From Deltaproteobacteria bacterium (GTDB lineage Bacteria; UBA10199; 2-02-FULL-44-16): a stretch of DNA of 18,035 nucleotides. Numbering within the stretch: position 1 is the first letter of the stretch; every line of letters starts with the position of its first letter. Of this stretch, positions 12,961 to 17,415 are shown in pieces. The stretch covers positions 1-18,035 of the forward strand of contig JACQMA010000143.1 of NCBI GenBank assembly GCA_016203825.1, in the 5' to 3' direction. The translations under genes and the position numbers were made by a program. The notes under the pieces were generated by a model that worked only from the letters and a program-made list of their open reading frames with translations, ran no database searches and was not told the DNA's origin.

Positions 12961-12998
12961 CGCAACTTCGGAGGGGTCGTCGACCGATAATGAAGATG
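12961..12998 (+). promoter_or_regulatory. FliA-like promoter element, copy 1 (before needle/rod-like gene)
   Basis: CGCAACTT (12961-12968), 14 bp, then ACCGATAAT (12983-12991) followed by GAAGATG. The second half matches 7 of 8 bases of the FliA -10 consensus GCCGATAA. The same two blocks with the same 14-bp gap recur at 14992. The start codon is 30 bases after the -10-like block, with GGAGG at 13011-13015. Confidence 0.6.
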
Positions 12999-13020
12999 CG
13001 GGACCCTTGTGGAGGTAAGC

Positions 13021-13560
13021 ATGGCAGACTCAATTGAAATGATTAACCCAGAGGCGATACGCTCCCAGACGAAGGCGATGGGGACGAAATCGCCTGGGGA
13101 TTTTAACGCCTTTCTCGATGCGGCCAATGCCATGACCCCGGCCTTTGCGACGGCGGGCCAGATGTATGCGAGCCCCAATGCCCAAGCCGTTCTTTCCTCG
13201 GCCTTTTCGGGGATGTCCTCGACCGGGGCGCTGGCCCAGCAAGCGTCGTATCCTTCATTTGCCGGTGGTGGTGGCGGTCTTCCCGATTACGGTGCTGGAT
13301 TTGCGAAATACGGAAACGGCCTTGGTGAACTCCCCAGTCCGGGTGGGCTCCCCAGTGGTGGTGAGCCGGTCGTTCCGGGAACAACGGGATTTACGACCGC
13401 AGACCTTATGAACTCGATGAACCAAAATAACTTGAAACTCCTGGAACTCCAGGCCGTCATGCAGAGCAACATGCAGGCGTGGAATACGAAGTCGAATATT
13501 CTTTCTGCCGATCACCGTGCCCGAATGGCGATGATCGAGAAATTCACGGCTCGAGGCTAA
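13021..13560 (+). CDS. Small T3SS-cluster protein, needle/rod-like C-terminus (candidate structural or secreted subunit)
   Basis: 179 residues from ATG 13021 (GGAGG 5 bases upstream; the in-frame GTG 12 bases earlier would overlap that ribosome site). There is no signal peptide, as expected for a T3SS substrate. Residues 1-75 are helical and Ala/Met-rich; 80-122 form a flexible Gly/Pro linker; 125-176 are a long helix with N-N-L-K-L-L-E-L-Q-A-V-M-Q. That helix lines up without gaps with the C-terminal helix of the SctI-like protein at 16912 (N-N-x2-L-L-x2-Q in both), which suggests a needle, rod or filament subunit. No clear named family. It has two stacked promoters and is followed at once by a terminator, a layout suited to much higher expression than the genes behind it. 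This functional reading is inference. Confidence 0.65.
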   Translation: MADSIEMINPEAIRSQTKAMGTKSPGDFNAFLDAANAMTPAFATAGQMYASPNAQAVLSSAFSGMSSTGALAQQASYPSFAGGGGGLPDYGAGFAKYGNGLGELPSPGGLPSGGEPVVPGTTGFTTADLMNSMNQNNLKLLELQAVMQSNMQAWNTKSNILSADHRARMAMIEKFTARG

Positions 13561-13583
13561 TCCGTGAATTGATGATTGCGCTC

Positions 13584-13622
13584 AAAGCCCGTCGGCTGAT
13601 ACTATCAGCGACGGGCTTTTTC
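13584..13622 (+). terminator. Intrinsic terminator after the needle/rod-like gene
   Basis: AAAGCCCGTCGGCTGAT pairs with ATCAGCGACGGGCTTT around an ACT loop, with a single bulged C, and is followed by a short T-rich tail ending in CTTTTTC. It lies between the gene at 13021 and the TPR gene at 13637, so transcription past the first gene is probably only partial. Confidence 0.8.
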
Positions 13623-13636
13623 TTCGAGGGGGGATC

Positions 13637-14089
13637 ATGATCGACATCGACCGAAAATACCTCGTCATGATGATGGAGGCGGGTTACGTCTATCTCGGCA
13701 TGCGTCGTTTGAAAGAGGCGCGCGCCATCTTTGAAGGTCTCTCGGCCATTTCGCCCGATAGCGACGTGCCCATTATTGCCCTCGGGGGCGTCGCTTTTTG
13801 TGAAGGTGATTTTCGCGGGGCGATGACGCTCTACCGCAAGGCGATGAAGGTCGATCCGCAAAGTCTCTTCGCCAAAGTCTACCTCGGTGAAGCCCTGTTC
13901 TTCTCCGGCAAGAAAGATGAAGCGCTCGAATACTTGGTGGAGGTGCGCGACGCCGATGCCAAGGGAGCTGCGGGAAGTTTTGCCACCGCCCTCATGGACG
14001 CTATTCACAAGGGTTTTACGCCGCAGATGCTCTCCAGTCTTCCGGGGAAGGAGAAAGGTCGTCATGCCGTTCACAAAGCGATTCACTAA
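13637..14089 (+). CDS. TPR protein, likely T3SS chaperone or SctG-like
   Basis: 150 residues from ATG 13637, with GAGGGGGG (13626-13633) as ribosome site. Three TPR units are visible: ~10-40 (A-G-Y-V-Y-L-G-M-R-R-L-K-E-A), ~45-74 (G-V-A-F-C-E-G-D-F-R-G-A-M-T-L-Y-R-K-A) and ~78-105 (Y-L-G-E-A-L-F-F-S-G-K-K-D-E-A). Small all-TPR proteins next to SctJ genes are usually class II chaperones for translocators (LcrH/SycD type) or needle-subunit chaperones (SctG type); its neighbour at 13021 is the obvious client. The reading frame overlaps the start of sctJ by 26 bases, so the two are tightly coupled. Confidence 0.75.
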   Translation: MIDIDRKYLVMMMEAGYVYLGMRRLKEARAIFEGLSAISPDSDVPIIALGGVAFCEGDFRGAMTLYRKAMKVDPQSLFAKVYLGEALFFSGKKDEALEYLVEVRDADAKGAAGSFATALMDAIHKGFTPQMLSSLPGKEKGRHAVHKAIH

Positions 14090-15002
14090 ATTTCTCGCTC
14101 TCCTTGTTTTCGTTTGTGCGGTGGGCTGCAGTGAGATCGATCTCTATCAAGATTTGGGCGAAGAAGACGCCAATGAGATTCTCGTCCTCCTCAGCGACCA
14201 TGGGATCAAGGCCGATAAGAAAAAGGTCATTCGTCAGAACGAAACTTTTTATGCTATTGCGGTTTCTGCCGAGGAGATGAGCAAGGCCCGCTCGCTTCTT
14301 TTGGAACACCATCTTCCCCGTCGCAAAGAGCTTGGGCTCACCGGGGTCTACAGTGAAAAGGGGCTGATCCCCACACCCGATGAGCAGAAGGCGCGGTATC
14401 TGTTGGCGTTGAAGGGAGAGATTATCAACTCCTTGGAGAGTCTCCCCGATATCGTGGATGCCGATGTCGTGCTGAACGTTCCGACCCCCGATGAATTTGC
14501 GAGCGAAGAGGCGAAGAAGCGCCTTCGACCAACGGCATCGGTGATTGTGCGAGCGAAGCCAGGGATCTCGACCGACAGCGTCATCACGGAGAGTAAACTC
14601 CAGCAATTTGTCGCGAACGCGATTGAAGGACTCAATCCCCGCGATGTCACGGTCATCATCAGCTATTTGCGGGATGGAAGCCGAACGCTGCGACCCGGGG
14701 ATGTCTTAACCCTTTCTCCCAAGGGAACACCGGAAACGTCCGCAGAAGAACCAACCGAACAACTCTTGGGCCTCAGCCTTGATGCGGCGTCGAAAGATCG
14801 TCTCAAGATGTACCTCCTCCTCTTCTTTTTGATCCTGATCCTCCTTTCCACGGGTCTCATCGTTTCGATCGTCCAAGGGAGCCGGATGCGGCGGACGCTC
14901 GCCACCCTTCAGGGGGCACCGGGAGGCCCTCCGGCCATTGAGGGGCGGGTCGTGGATGAACAGCGCCGCCTGGGCGGGGGTGGAGAGGGGACGCAACTTT
15001 GA
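14064..15002 (+). CDS. sctJ: T3SS inner-membrane ring lipoprotein SctJ (YscJ/PrgK family)
   Basis: 312 residues from ATG 14064. A lipoprotein signal ends at A-V-G-C (Cys22). The YscJ/FliF ring-building region follows directly: E-I-D-L-Y-Q-D-L-G-E-E-D-A-N-E-I-L near 24-40, where the Leu-Tyr-x-x-Leu and Ala-Asn pattern is the family hallmark, then a second ring domain around 115-225 (L-K-G-E-I-I-N-S-L-E-S-L-P-D-I-V-D-A-D-V-V-L). One C-terminal membrane helix (~249-271) is followed by a short basic, Gly-rich tail. This is the non-flagellar form: flagellar FliF is about 550 residues with two membrane helices and no lipobox. SctJ and SctD form the inner-membrane ring of the injectisome. Its last codons overlap the second FliA-like promoter element. 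Confidence 0.93.
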   Translation: MPFTKRFTKFLALLVFVCAVGCSEIDLYQDLGEEDANEILVLLSDHGIKADKKKVIRQNETFYAIAVSAEEMSKARSLLLEHHLPRRKELGLTGVYSEKGLIPTPDEQKARYLLALKGEIINSLESLPDIVDADVVLNVPTPDEFASEEAKKRLRPTASVIVRAKPGISTDSVITESKLQQFVANAIEGLNPRDVTVIISYLRDGSRTLRPGDVLTLSPKGTPETSAEEPTEQLLGLSLDAASKDRLKMYLLLFFLILILLSTGLIVSIVQGSRMRRTLATLQGAPGGPPAIEGRVVDEQRRLGGGGEGTQL

Positions 15003-15029
15003 CCCCTCCAAAAACCGATAATCAGGATG
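14992..15029 (+). promoter_or_regulatory. FliA-like promoter element, copy 2 (end of sctJ)
   Basis: CGCAACTT (14992-14999, overlapping the last sctJ codons), 14 bp, ACCGATAAT (15014-15022), then CAGGATG. Both blocks and the gap equal those at 12961; the tail differs by two bases in seven. The spacers are unrelated, so the match is confined to the promoter-like positions. It should drive the gene at 15068. Confidence 0.6.
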
Positions 15030-15067: not shown

Positions 15068-15490
15068 GTGGATTTCACACCCATTAAGCCTGACCTGGTC
15101 AAATTCGAAATGCGGATGGTCCAAGGGGTCAATCCGCATGAGAAGGAGATGAAGCAACCGGGTGGGTTCGCCCGTTTTCTCTCCGGAGCGGGCCGTGTCC
15201 TTGGGTCCGTCGCCCTGCCGCTTTCGTTTATCTTCCCCCCGGCGGCGATTGGTGCAGCGACGATGTATGGGACGAGTGCTGTCGGCGATCAGATGCAACA
15301 ACGCATTTACCTGAAACAAATGGAACAAGCCCAACGCAACCAGGCGACCAACGTGTCCTTTCCTGGTTTGGGTGTTGGTGACGGTGGACTTCAGCCGGCG
15401 GCCGGGACGGTGTCGGCGGCTGATGAAACGGTCATGAACGTGCTTTTTAAGCGAAACGATGCGATGATGGAGAATGCGCATATGCTGTAA
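15068..15490 (+). CDS. Unrecognised T3SS-cluster protein with one hydrophobic segment
   Basis: 140 residues, starting at GTG 15068 with AAGGAG (15057-15062) at ideal distance; no earlier ATG fits. There is no signal peptide. Residues 43-68 are hydrophobic (G-R-V-L-G-S-V-A-L-P-L-S-F-I-F) with Pro-Pro in the middle, followed by a Gln-rich helix (75-92), a Gly-rich turn and a C-terminal helix (118-140) containing V-M-N-V-L-F-K-R-N-D-A-M-M. A small protein with an internal membrane-like hairpin and no signal is what one expects of a T3SS translocator, or of a substrate or inner-membrane accessory. It follows the second FliA-like element, so it is probably under the same control as the needle/rod-like gene. 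Confidence 0.65.
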   Translation: MDFTPIKPDLVKFEMRMVQGVNPHEKEMKQPGGFARFLSGAGRVLGSVALPLSFIFPPAAIGAATMYGTSAVGDQMQQRIYLKQMEQAQRNQATNVSFPGLGVGDGGLQPAAGTVSAADETVMNVLFKRNDAMMENAHML

Positions 15491-15518: not shown

Positions 15519-15902
15519 ATGATCAGCGGTGCGAAAATGAAAGTCGATGGTCCTTCGGCGTCTTCGCCGGCAGCCACTGAATCACCACCCATCACGACAC
15601 GAGCGACGTATGGTGCGGGAACACCCGCAAAGGTCAGTCCTTTTGATCGTGAGAGCCACGGCAAGTTGCTGGCGCGTGAAGTTGGTCACCGACAGGATTT
15701 CCGGCAGATCATCAATGAACGTCGTTCGATGGAGGCCACAGACGACGAAGTTGCCGGTATTGTCGATGCCCTCAAGCCAGCCGATCAGCCAAACGAACTC
15801 TACGATCTCTTAAGCCCCGATTTGCGGGCCGGTGTCACGCGACAAGAATTCGTCGACCTCGCCTTCAACCTCCGTACGGCGATGATGAATAAGTTGTCTT
15901 AA
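15519..15902 (+). CDS. Unrecognised T3SS-cluster protein, disordered N-terminus and helical domain
   Basis: 127 residues from ATG 15519 (GAGG at 15511-15514). Residues 1-45 are Ser/Pro/Thr-rich and likely disordered, as in many secreted T3SS substrates; 46-127 form a compact helical domain with L-A-R-E-V-G-H-R-Q-D-F, D-D-E-V-A-G-I-V-D-A-L and G-V-T-R-Q-E-F-V-D-L-A-F segments. It is probably cotranscribed with the gene at 15068 (28-base gap) and ends at a terminator. No family recognised. It could be a secreted regulator or small chaperone. Confidence 0.65.
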   Translation: MISGAKMKVDGPSASSPAATESPPITTRATYGAGTPAKVSPFDRESHGKLLAREVGHRQDFRQIINERRSMEATDDEVAGIVDALKPADQPNELYDLLSPDLRAGVTRQEFVDLAFNLRTAMMNKLS

Positions 15903-15906
15903 ACTG

Positions 15907-15948
15907 GGGTCTGGGGGCCTCAAAAGGCCTGCTCAGACCCTCGTTTTT
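15907..15948 (+). terminator. Intrinsic terminator before the sigma-factor gene
   Basis: GGGTCTG (15907-15913) pairs with CAGACCC (15934-15940). An inner GGCC/GGCC pair can form around a TCAAAA loop. GTTTTT at 15943-15948 gives the T-run. It closes the unit that begins at 15068. Confidence 0.8.
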
Positions 15949-15982: not shown

Positions 15983-16007
15983 AAGTCATTTCAATAAGTT
16001 AAGTCAT
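15983..16007. promoter_or_regulatory. Direct repeat AAGTCAT x2 upstream of the sigma gene
   Basis: AAGTCAT occurs at 15983-15989 and 16001-16007, an 18-bp period, in an AT-rich stretch 55-79 bases before the sigma-factor start. It might be an activator or repressor site; no regulator is recognised. No clear -35/-10 pair was found in the same stretch. Confidence 0.25.
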
Positions 16008-16061
16008 GGCATGTTTTCTGCATCGTTAAGTTCCGAACGGGTTTCCAAAAGGGGGAAAACC

Positions 16062-16922
16062 ATGGCCAAGCCGGCCTTGAGGCATGATCATCGTGCGACA
16101 TCGAAACACAAGGTGTCCGACACCAAGAAACTGGACGCTCGTCCCAAGAGCCGTGCTGAACAACAGCGTGATCTTGCGGAACTCAAACGTCGCAACGACC
16201 TCATCGATCAGTACATGCCGTACGCTGCATCGATCGCGAGTCGCGTCTGTCAAAGTCTCTCCTCGGCGGTCGATTATGAAGATGTTGTGTGCAACGCGCG
16301 TGTCGGACTCCTCGAAGCTGCCAAGCGTTTTGAGTTATCCCAAGACGTCGATTTTCGAACATTTGCCTATTATCGGATTAAAGGCGCGATCTACGATGGA
16401 TTGCGTCGGAGCGGTTGGCTCCCGCGCACGCTCTACGCCAAGATCAAATTCGAAGAAGCAGCGAACGACTACCTCCAAAACCGTCGCCTCAATCAGCCCA
16501 CGGGTCCTGTTCGTCCGATGCCGGGGGCGACAACCGGGGGCGACGATGATGAACATGCGGTCACCGAAACGGTCAACACGCTGGCATCGATCTACATCGT
16601 CTCGCTTGATGAGAATGAAGACATCGATGTCGAAGATGAACATGGTGCGAATGTCGAGCAACGCACCGAATTCATGCAAGTCCGTCGCTACATGCGGGAT
16701 GCTATCGGCAGTCTTCCCGAGAAAGAGAAGCAATTGGTGATGATGTACTATTTTCAAAATCGAACACTCGAAGAGATTGGTGAGCGGCTCGGACTGTCCA
16801 AATCGTGGACGTCGCGCCTTCATGCGCGCGCGTTGGCCCTTCTCTTCAAGCGCATTAAGCAACGGGCACAGACGCAAAAAGAAAATGATGAGGGGGAAGT
16901 GGAGATGTCCCATGGCGAGTGA
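16062..16922 (+). CDS. FliA/WhiG-type sigma factor, T3SS-cluster encoded
   Basis: 286 residues from ATG 16062 (GGGGG ribosome site at 16051-16055; the in-frame ATG 51 bases upstream lacks one). A basic N-terminal extension of ~40 residues is followed by region 2 (Y-A-A-S-I-A-S-R at 54-61, V-D-Y-E-D-V-V at 70-76, R-I-K-G-A-I-Y-D-G-L-R-R-S-G-W-L-P-R at 105-122), which closely matches the FliA family. Region 4 is intact (L-P-E-K-E-K-Q-L-V at 218-226; E-E-I-G-E-R-L-G-L-S at 237-246). Region 3, normally about 60 residues ending in the GR-x-PT-x-EIA box, is missing that box; instead there is a Pro/Gly stretch and an acidic loop (D-D-D-E at 161-164; D-E-N-E-D-I-D-V-E-D-E at 183-193). The stop overlaps the SctI-like start by 11 bases. 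It is the natural candidate for reading the two FliA-like elements nearby. Confidence 0.9.
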   Translation: MAKPALRHDHRATSKHKVSDTKKLDARPKSRAEQQRDLAELKRRNDLIDQYMPYAASIASRVCQSLSSAVDYEDVVCNARVGLLEAAKRFELSQDVDFRTFAYYRIKGAIYDGLRRSGWLPRTLYAKIKFEEAANDYLQNRRLNQPTGPVRPMPGATTGGDDDEHAVTETVNTLASIYIVSLDENEDIDVEDEHGANVEQRTEFMQVRRYMRDAIGSLPEKEKQLVMMYYFQNRTLEEIGERLGLSKSWTSRLHARALALLFKRIKQRAQTQKENDEGEVEMSHGE

Positions 16923-17415
16923 AGCGTTGTTGGGAAAACTGAATGCGCAAGCCCTGTCGAAGGCCCTCGATCACTCCAATATGACCAGCCAGCAGTCGGC
17001 GACGTCAACTCAGAATTCTTCGTTCAAGGACATGATGGCGGCAGCGGAAAACAGTGGCGATGAAATGACACGGATGTTGGGAATGGGGAATACCGATGTC
17101 ACGCCCGTGAATCAGGTTGTGGCCCTCTCGGGCAACGATGTACCGTTCACCCCGGGAAACGTGGGGATCGGCGTTGAACAACCTGATGGATCGCGAAAAG
17201 TTCTGAACATGTTGGCCGACGTGAATCGTGGCCAGCTCCAGATGGACAGTCTGGTGAATCATGTGTTGTACAGCGGGAAGCGTTTCAATAATCAGGAACT
17301 GCTGGTTATCCAGTCGCATATTTTCCATTTTGCGCAGATGACGGAATTGACGGTGAAGGTTGCGGAACACGGGATTTCCTCGGTCCGCTCGGTCCTCAAC
17401 ACGCAGGTGCAATAA
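16912..17415 (+). CDS. sctI: T3SS inner-rod protein, SctI/YscI-like
   Basis: 167 residues from ATG 16912 (GGAG at 16901-16904), overlapping the end of the sigma gene. There is no signal peptide. The first ~75 residues are polar and Ser/Asn/Met-rich; the last ~55 are the conserved part: G-Q-L-Q-M-D-S-L-V-N, then N-N-Q-E-L-L-V-I-Q (126-134), T-E-L-T-V-K-V (144-150) and a tail ending Q-V-Q. That LL-x-x-Q and E-L-T-x-K-V pattern is the signature of the SctI/YscI/PrgJ rod family (and, more loosely, of FliE). SctI links the export gate to the needle and is itself secreted early. The family call rests on the C-terminal third only. Confidence 0.72.
   Translation: MASEALLGKLNAQALSKALDHSNMTSQQSATSTQNSSFKDMMAAAENSGDEMTRMLGMGNTDVTPVNQVVALSGNDVPFTPGNVGIGVEQPDGSRKVLNMLADVNRGQLQMDSLVNHVLYSGKRFNNQELLVIQSHIFHFAQMTELTVKVAEHGISSVRSVLNTQVQ

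Follow-up and report, generated by a model that had tools for sequence, protein, structure and literature searches.

Candidate promoters of a FliA-type sigma factor probably dedicated to a non-flagellar T3SS

Overview of the predicted regulon

Two promoter-like elements in a T3SS gene cluster of a deltaproteobacterium are very likely promoters of a FliA-type sigma factor dedicated to a non-flagellar T3SS, and as judged from sequence they would belong to a cascade running from sigma-54 through a sigma-28-type factor to part of the machine and to putative effectors. The window, that is, the whole stretch of DNA analysed, comprises 18,035 nucleotides (contig JACQMA010000143.1). A dedicated sigma regulon had been proposed for it in the original prediction, and comparative genomics now supports this interpretation through the class-wide occurrence of the element, its presence at orthologous positions and the clade formed by the linked sigma factors. 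The regulon extends far outside the T3SS cluster; confinement of the element to that cluster is ruled out, as the majority of sites lie elsewhere. The search sample consisted of 60 genomes, namely the genome of the window (own genome), 45 relatives of the same class (classmates) and 14 genomes from elsewhere.

Gene organization and the two elements

The features of the window considered here are as follows.

12961..12991, + strand: promoter-like element 1, 29-bp class, core GCAACTT-N15-CCGATAA
13021..13560, + strand: sctX1 (name used here), T3SS-cluster gene, no Pfam match; orthologue in 18/20 relatives' clusters
13637..14089, + strand: TPR protein of the cluster, Pfam TPR families
14064..15002, + strand: sctJ, inner-ring lipoprotein, YscJ_FliF, 85 bits, 312 aa
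14992..15022, + strand: promoter-like element 2, 29-bp class, overlaps the sctJ end
15068..15490, + strand: 'small' (name used here), T3SS-cluster gene, no Pfam match; orthologue in 20/20 relatives' clusters
15519..15902, + strand: small fast-evolving gene before the sigma gene, no Pfam match
15906..15941, + strand: intrinsic-terminator-like hairpin followed by a T run, -25 kcal/mol, z -4.0
16007..16022, + strand: sigma-54 type -24/-12 element TGGCATGTTTTCTGCA
16062..16922, + strand: FliA/WhiG-type sigma factor of the T3SS clade, Sigma70_r2 and r4; best solved-structure matches WhiG and FliA
16912..17415, + strand: cluster gene after the sigma gene, no Pfam match, conserved beside the sigma gene in relatives

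The T3SS is of the non-flagellar kind, as defined by an export gate together with SctJ, a short lipoprotein, in place of FliF. T3SS-type sctJ was found in 38 of the 45 classmates, and a match to FHIPEP (export gate) in 44 of them; no FHIPEP match was found in the own genome, an incomplete assembly (1.1 Mb in 230 contigs, 84% complete). The order sctX1, TPR gene, sctJ, 'small', further small genes, sigma gene and next gene is kept in 20 relatives as far as their contigs reach; among these 20 clusters a match to sctX1 is absent from those of G019 and G034, and the gene is cut in G031. Most of the relatives' clusters have ORFs similar to 15519..15902 in place and size, with no detectable homology to it, and its product is, speculatively, a candidate chaperone or anti-sigma factor. 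The gene at 16912..17415 is taken here, by its place, to be SctI-like.

Both copies of CGCAACTT-N14-ACCGATAAT were recovered where they had been described, at 12961-12991 and 14992-15022 on the + strand, with 0 mismatches; a scan of the window with up to 3 mismatches found no third copy, against 0.04 copies expected by chance (shuffles). Each copy lies just upstream of a small T3SS-cluster gene, as had been claimed, with its last base 30 bases from the start codon in one case (ATG at 13021) and 46 in the other (GTG at 15068), and the upstream block of copy 2 does fall within the last codons of sctJ, which ends at 15002. The -35 block had been called unlike that of FliA, which does not wholly hold: the class consensus GCAACTTT agrees at 5 of 8 positions with TAAAGTTT, the reference being the full E. 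coli sigma-28 (FliA) regulon consensus TAAAGTTT-n11-GCCGATAA as given in PMC2859248. The two spacers, earlier described as unrelated, are not neutral filler; both fit the G/C-rich habit, with GGG/CCC runs, of the 29-bp class of sites. The spacers of 12961-12991 and 14992-15022 also have GGAGGGGTC in common, inverted between them (GGAGGGGTC / GACCCCTCC), which is probably part of the same G/C-run habit.

Distribution and conservation of the element

The element does not occur at random. Its core, GCAACTT-N12-16-CCGATAA, has 953 sites over 46/46 class genomes (the own genome and 45/45 classmates, with 2-58 sites per classmate), against 3 matches for the reversed control, and has no site in any of the 14 genomes outside the class, where the reversed control gives 2 matches. 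The own genome contains 11 core sites (reversed control, 0) and 4 matches to CGCAACTTN12-16CCGATAA. A search of five genomes with gaps of 7-22 gave 138 sites, every one of them 26-31 bp in total length.

The element is also kept upstream of orthologues in relatives, in 17/17 cases for sctX1 and 20/20 for 'small', with at most 3 mismatches, near matches being sought within about 260 bp before the gene. For sctX1, the relatives counted are those with the gene start in hand, and 14 sites were found by the pattern and 3 with 1 mismatch; 16 are 29 bp long, and that of G028 is 28 bp long. For 'small', 14 sites were found by the pattern and 6 with 1-3 mismatches (G028 being the worst), all of 29 bp; the reversed control for near matches, which covered up to 2 mismatches, gave 1 such match in 32 kb.

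The sites are strongly oriented relative to genes. In G001, G006, G013 and G017, 66/116 sites are followed within 80 bp by the start of an ORF of at least 150 aa, compared with 4/116 in the opposite direction, and with ORFs of at least 60 aa the same layout gives 87 vs 22 of 116; the count covers 116 of the 118 sites in these genomes, the two T3SS-cluster sites of G006 standing outside it. For the site set as a whole, chance or a coding artefact is ruled out by the shuffle, reversed and direction controls. No ORF was found behind the 31-bp site of G017 (L217), and sites in G001 (L306) and G013 (L191) precede similar ORFs that resemble parts of zinc-ribbon genes; these few sites are probably due to chance or coding.

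Length classes and their target genes

The sites fall into length classes. Among 267 sites, which are all those of 11 genomes (six of them searched at 26-30 bp only, with G007 and the other classmates outside the set), 164 are 27 bp long, 29 are 28 bp, 70 are 29 bp and 4 are of other lengths. The 27-bp class has an A/T-rich spacer and the 29-bp class a G/C-rich one, the mean spacer G+C being 0.36, 0.54 and 0.59 for 27, 28 and 29 bp, respectively (27 vs 29 bp, p = 1e-18); GGG/CCC runs occur in 0.68 of 88 distinct 29-bp spacers, compared with 0.46 after per-spacer shuffling. The 27-bp form has the layout of E. coli sigma-28 promoters (n11), while the 29-bp form corresponds to n13. By sequence, the 27-bp class matches a sigma-28 promoter, with a GCCGATAA-like -10 and, at n11, a -35 that agrees at 5/8 positions; the window copies (29 bp, n13) do so only with a longer spacer.

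In G000, G013 and G017, the 29-bp targets include SctV (G013), an SctD-like FHA/YscD protein (G000), sctX1 and 'small', and further two SLT transglycosylases, a HEAT protein, an AAA protein and some proteins without known family; the transglycosylase and a common unknown gene are found again after 29-bp sites in G001 and G006. The 27-bp targets are scattered and mostly unknown effector-like genes, some of them with Sec or lipoprotein signals (by eye). The Pfam scan took in part of the 27-bp targets read: of 29 proteins, 21 match no family at E 0.01, 3 match weakly and 5 pass the curated cut-off (protein kinase, TPR, TSP3, subtilase and M10 peptidase), and one scanned 28-bp target is a nucleoside hydrolase. 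The 27-bp targets are regarded as candidate T3SS-secreted effectors on two grounds, the class of their promoters and the fact that 21/29 of those scanned match no Pfam family.

The machine is represented in part. A site lies within about 1.5 kb of sctV in just 3 of the 21 genomes examined, so that a general placing of sctV under the GCAACTT element is rejected and regulon membership is indicated for part of the machine; these sites are 29 bp, exact and 24 bp before the start in G013, 29 bp with 1 mismatch and about 0.3-0.4 kb off in G039, and 28 bp with 1 mismatch and about 0.8-0.9 kb off in G010. Sigma-54 type elements were observed a few hundred bp before sctV in 4/20 genomes (L354, L357, L358 and L360), and part of the T3SS machine may be driven directly by sigma-54. 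In contig C109 of the own genome, a strong terminator-like hairpin (L003:1557-1592, z -5.7) stands between a 29-bp site and the SctD-like gene and is a possible attenuator or small RNA.

Two readings of the length classes have to be weighed. According to the first, they have no functional meaning: length simply follows the base composition of the spacer through the twist and rise of DNA, and one sigma factor reads both classes alike. This reading, which comes close to an even chance, is favoured by the rise of spacer G+C with length, by the existence of 28-bp sites that resemble the 29-bp ones, and by the abundance of 29-bp sites in G006 (16/53) and G008 (14/28), some of which do not precede recognisable T3SS genes. 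It is opposed by the constancy of length at orthologous T3SS positions, 36/37 of which have the same 29-bp length, and by the enrichment of common targets in the 29-bp class: targets common to at least two of five genomes make up 12/31 for 29-bp sites, 6/66 for 26-27-bp sites and 0/11 for 28-bp sites (Fisher p 0.0013 for 29 vs 26-27 bp). According to the second, which is put forward tentatively as somewhat short of evenly balanced, one sigma factor reads both classes, and the 2-bp longer, G/C-rich spacer sets the machine genes, at 29 bp, apart from the effector genes, at 27 bp, so that an order of expression might arise without FlgM, all of it downstream of sigma-54.

The linked sigma factor

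A FliA/WhiG-type sigma gene had been placed downstream of the elements, and one does start at 16062. Its product belongs to the FliA/WhiG (sigma-28) family, with Sigma-70 regions 2 and 4 and with WhiG and FliA as the closest solved structures, WhiG being the best. A strong orthologue was found in 40/45 classmates, and in addition to these G035 has a shortened one of 215 aa. In 38/38 aligned T3SS sigma factors the recognition helix reads SKSW[TV][SC]R, where E. coli FliA and WhiG have ESRVSQ; the region that reads the -10, by contrast, resembles that of FliA. The element itself shows the same pattern, its -10 half being that of FliA and its -35 half different. The recognition helix is the reader of the -35 half of a promoter, and the other region the reader of the -10 half. 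Since the -10 half and the -10-reading region are both FliA-like, and the -35 half and the recognition helix are both altered, we infer that the T3SS sigma factor reads the GCAACTT/CCGATAA element.

In the tree, a 100/97 branch separates the 38 T3SS sigma factors from seven others, with a program warning of long branches; a sigma factor of G043 (C241, 8127-8744, L328) has a long branch and a KSWASR helix and falls on the T3SS side, so that the labels need 2 changes rather than 1. No usable sigma sequence came from the flagellar locus of G029, G003:C81, G024:C2 or L062, and G011:C10, being partial, was excluded. The T3SS sigma factor is not an orthologue of flagellar FliA in the sense of a factor that groups with FliA and serves flagellar genes. 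Flagellin matches occur in four classmates, and the five best-scoring flagellin loci have no GCAACTT-type site at spacers of 11-17. In the flagellin upstream regions of G011 and G029 (L314 and L313), T[AC]AAGTTT-n11/12-TCCGTC was seen by eye, and the flagellar sigma factor of the class possibly has a different -10. FlgM (PF04316) matches were found in 4/45 classmates, all of them flagellin-bearing, and none in the own genome; a FlgM-type checkpoint is ruled out, there being no FlgM match in the class beyond the four flagellated classmates.

It is improbable that a different cellular sigma factor reads the element while the linked FliA-type factor has other targets. The difference of the -35 half from the FliA consensus speaks for such a reading, as do G003, G024, G025 and G041, in which the T3SS-type sigma factor was not found despite 22, 3, 37 and 2 sites, respectively, and three of which are at least 95% complete. 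T3SS-type sctJ is also absent from these four genomes while an FHIPEP match is present, and this joint absence of sctJ and sigma gene suggests one missing contig. The identity of the -10 half with the FliA -10 argues against another reader, and so do the Sigma70_r4 proteins of the own genome, where nothing was found beyond the T3SS sigma factor and one protein at a contig end, and the position of the sigma gene beside the conserved elements in 18/20 clusters read (the other two are cut by a contig end or partial). No classmate without both sigma factor and sites was found among the 45.

That the element serves a conserved transcription factor as its operator, and is not a promoter core, is very improbable: two blocks at fixed spacing do look operator-like, and the distance of the second block from the start codons, 30-46 bases, also fits, but the 27-bp class has the known sigma-28 layout, the sites are strongly oriented relative to genes, and the 29-bp spacers have no clear palindrome (2.67 vs 2.55 in shuffles, a value reached by 5% of them), which also rejects a MerR-like operator in the long spacer. 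The 27-bp spacers do exceed their shuffles for palindromes (2.52 vs 2.29, reached by 0/200), an excess put down to a T run followed by an A run.

Control of the sigma gene and proposed mechanism

The terminator-like hairpin divides the sigma gene from the preceding unit, and a sigma-54 type promoter sequence, GG-N10-GC with TGGC and TGC flanks, follows it. The corresponding TGGC-N8-TGC(A/T) element precedes the sigma gene in 37/38 orthologues with enough upstream sequence, a count reached after the pattern had been altered twice for variant letters (21/31, then 26/30, then 37/38), while the density of the pattern elsewhere is 0.019 per 280 bp. The sole miss is G009, which has an N run there; one further sigma locus was too short to be counted, and the start codons of the relatives are estimates. 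An rpoN gene is present in the own genome and in 43/45 classmates; no RpoN match was found in G034 and G039 (family f20), although the -24/-12 element is preserved upstream of the sigma gene in both. These sequences suggest that sigma-54 drives the sigma gene.

In the mechanism proposed, sigma-54 RNA polymerase and an activator would use the -24/-12 element at 16007 to transcribe the sigma gene. The sigma factor would then take RNA polymerase to GCAACTTT-n11-(G/A)CCGATAA (27-bp) and GCAACTTT-n13-(G/A)CCGATAA (29-bp) sites. The 29-bp sites would drive T3SS-associated units, which in the window run from 13021 onward and from 15068 onward, and the 27-bp sites would drive scattered genes, mostly of unknown function, as candidate secreted effectors. 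Against this mechanism stand the four genomes that have sites but in which the T3SS-type sigma factor was not found, the rarity of sites near sctV, the missing RpoN match in G034 and G039, and the Sec or lipoprotein signals of some 27-bp targets.

Comparison with known systems and implications

Sigma-28 is the late-flagellar sigma factor, and WhiG controls development. Actinobacterial WhiG resembles the present case in being the best solved-structure match to the T3SS sigma factor and in its non-flagellar use of the family, but it keeps the ESRVSQ helix. The E. coli FliA regulon, as presented in PMC2859248, is alike in sigma family, -10 block, 27-bp layout and T3SS-related cargo; here, in contrast, the -35 block and the recognition helix are different, there is an extra 29-bp class, and FlgM matches occur only in four flagellated classmates. 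In P. syringae, a cascade from HrpRS through sigma-54 to HrpL has been described, HrpL being an ECF sigma factor with the hrp box (PMC5263251); alike is the arrangement in which sigma-54 drives an alternative sigma factor that serves a T3SS via a common promoter box, whereas here a FliA-type sigma factor and a sigma-28 type box would stand in the place of HrpL. In Chlamydia, too, a non-flagellar T3SS occurs in the same cell as sigma-28 and sigma-54, but the sources cited report hctB and tsp as the whole of its sigma-28 regulon and sigma-66 as the factor that transcribes its sigma-28 gene (PMC12282069, PMC10597470). Among the matches listed from open-access PMC, no report of a sigma-28-controlled non-flagellar T3SS stood out.

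From the 953 sites, sequence alone yields a list of proteins of uncultured bacteria that are candidates for secretion, and most of those scanned fall in no known family. The 27/29-bp split offers a clean case in which the length of a spacer may act as a regulatory signal. If the proposed cascade is true, a FliA-type sigma factor fills the slot that HrpL, an ECF sigma factor, occupies in P. syringae, and a class-wide sigma-28 paralogue that apparently serves a non-flagellar injection machine would mean that flagellar logic has been reused.
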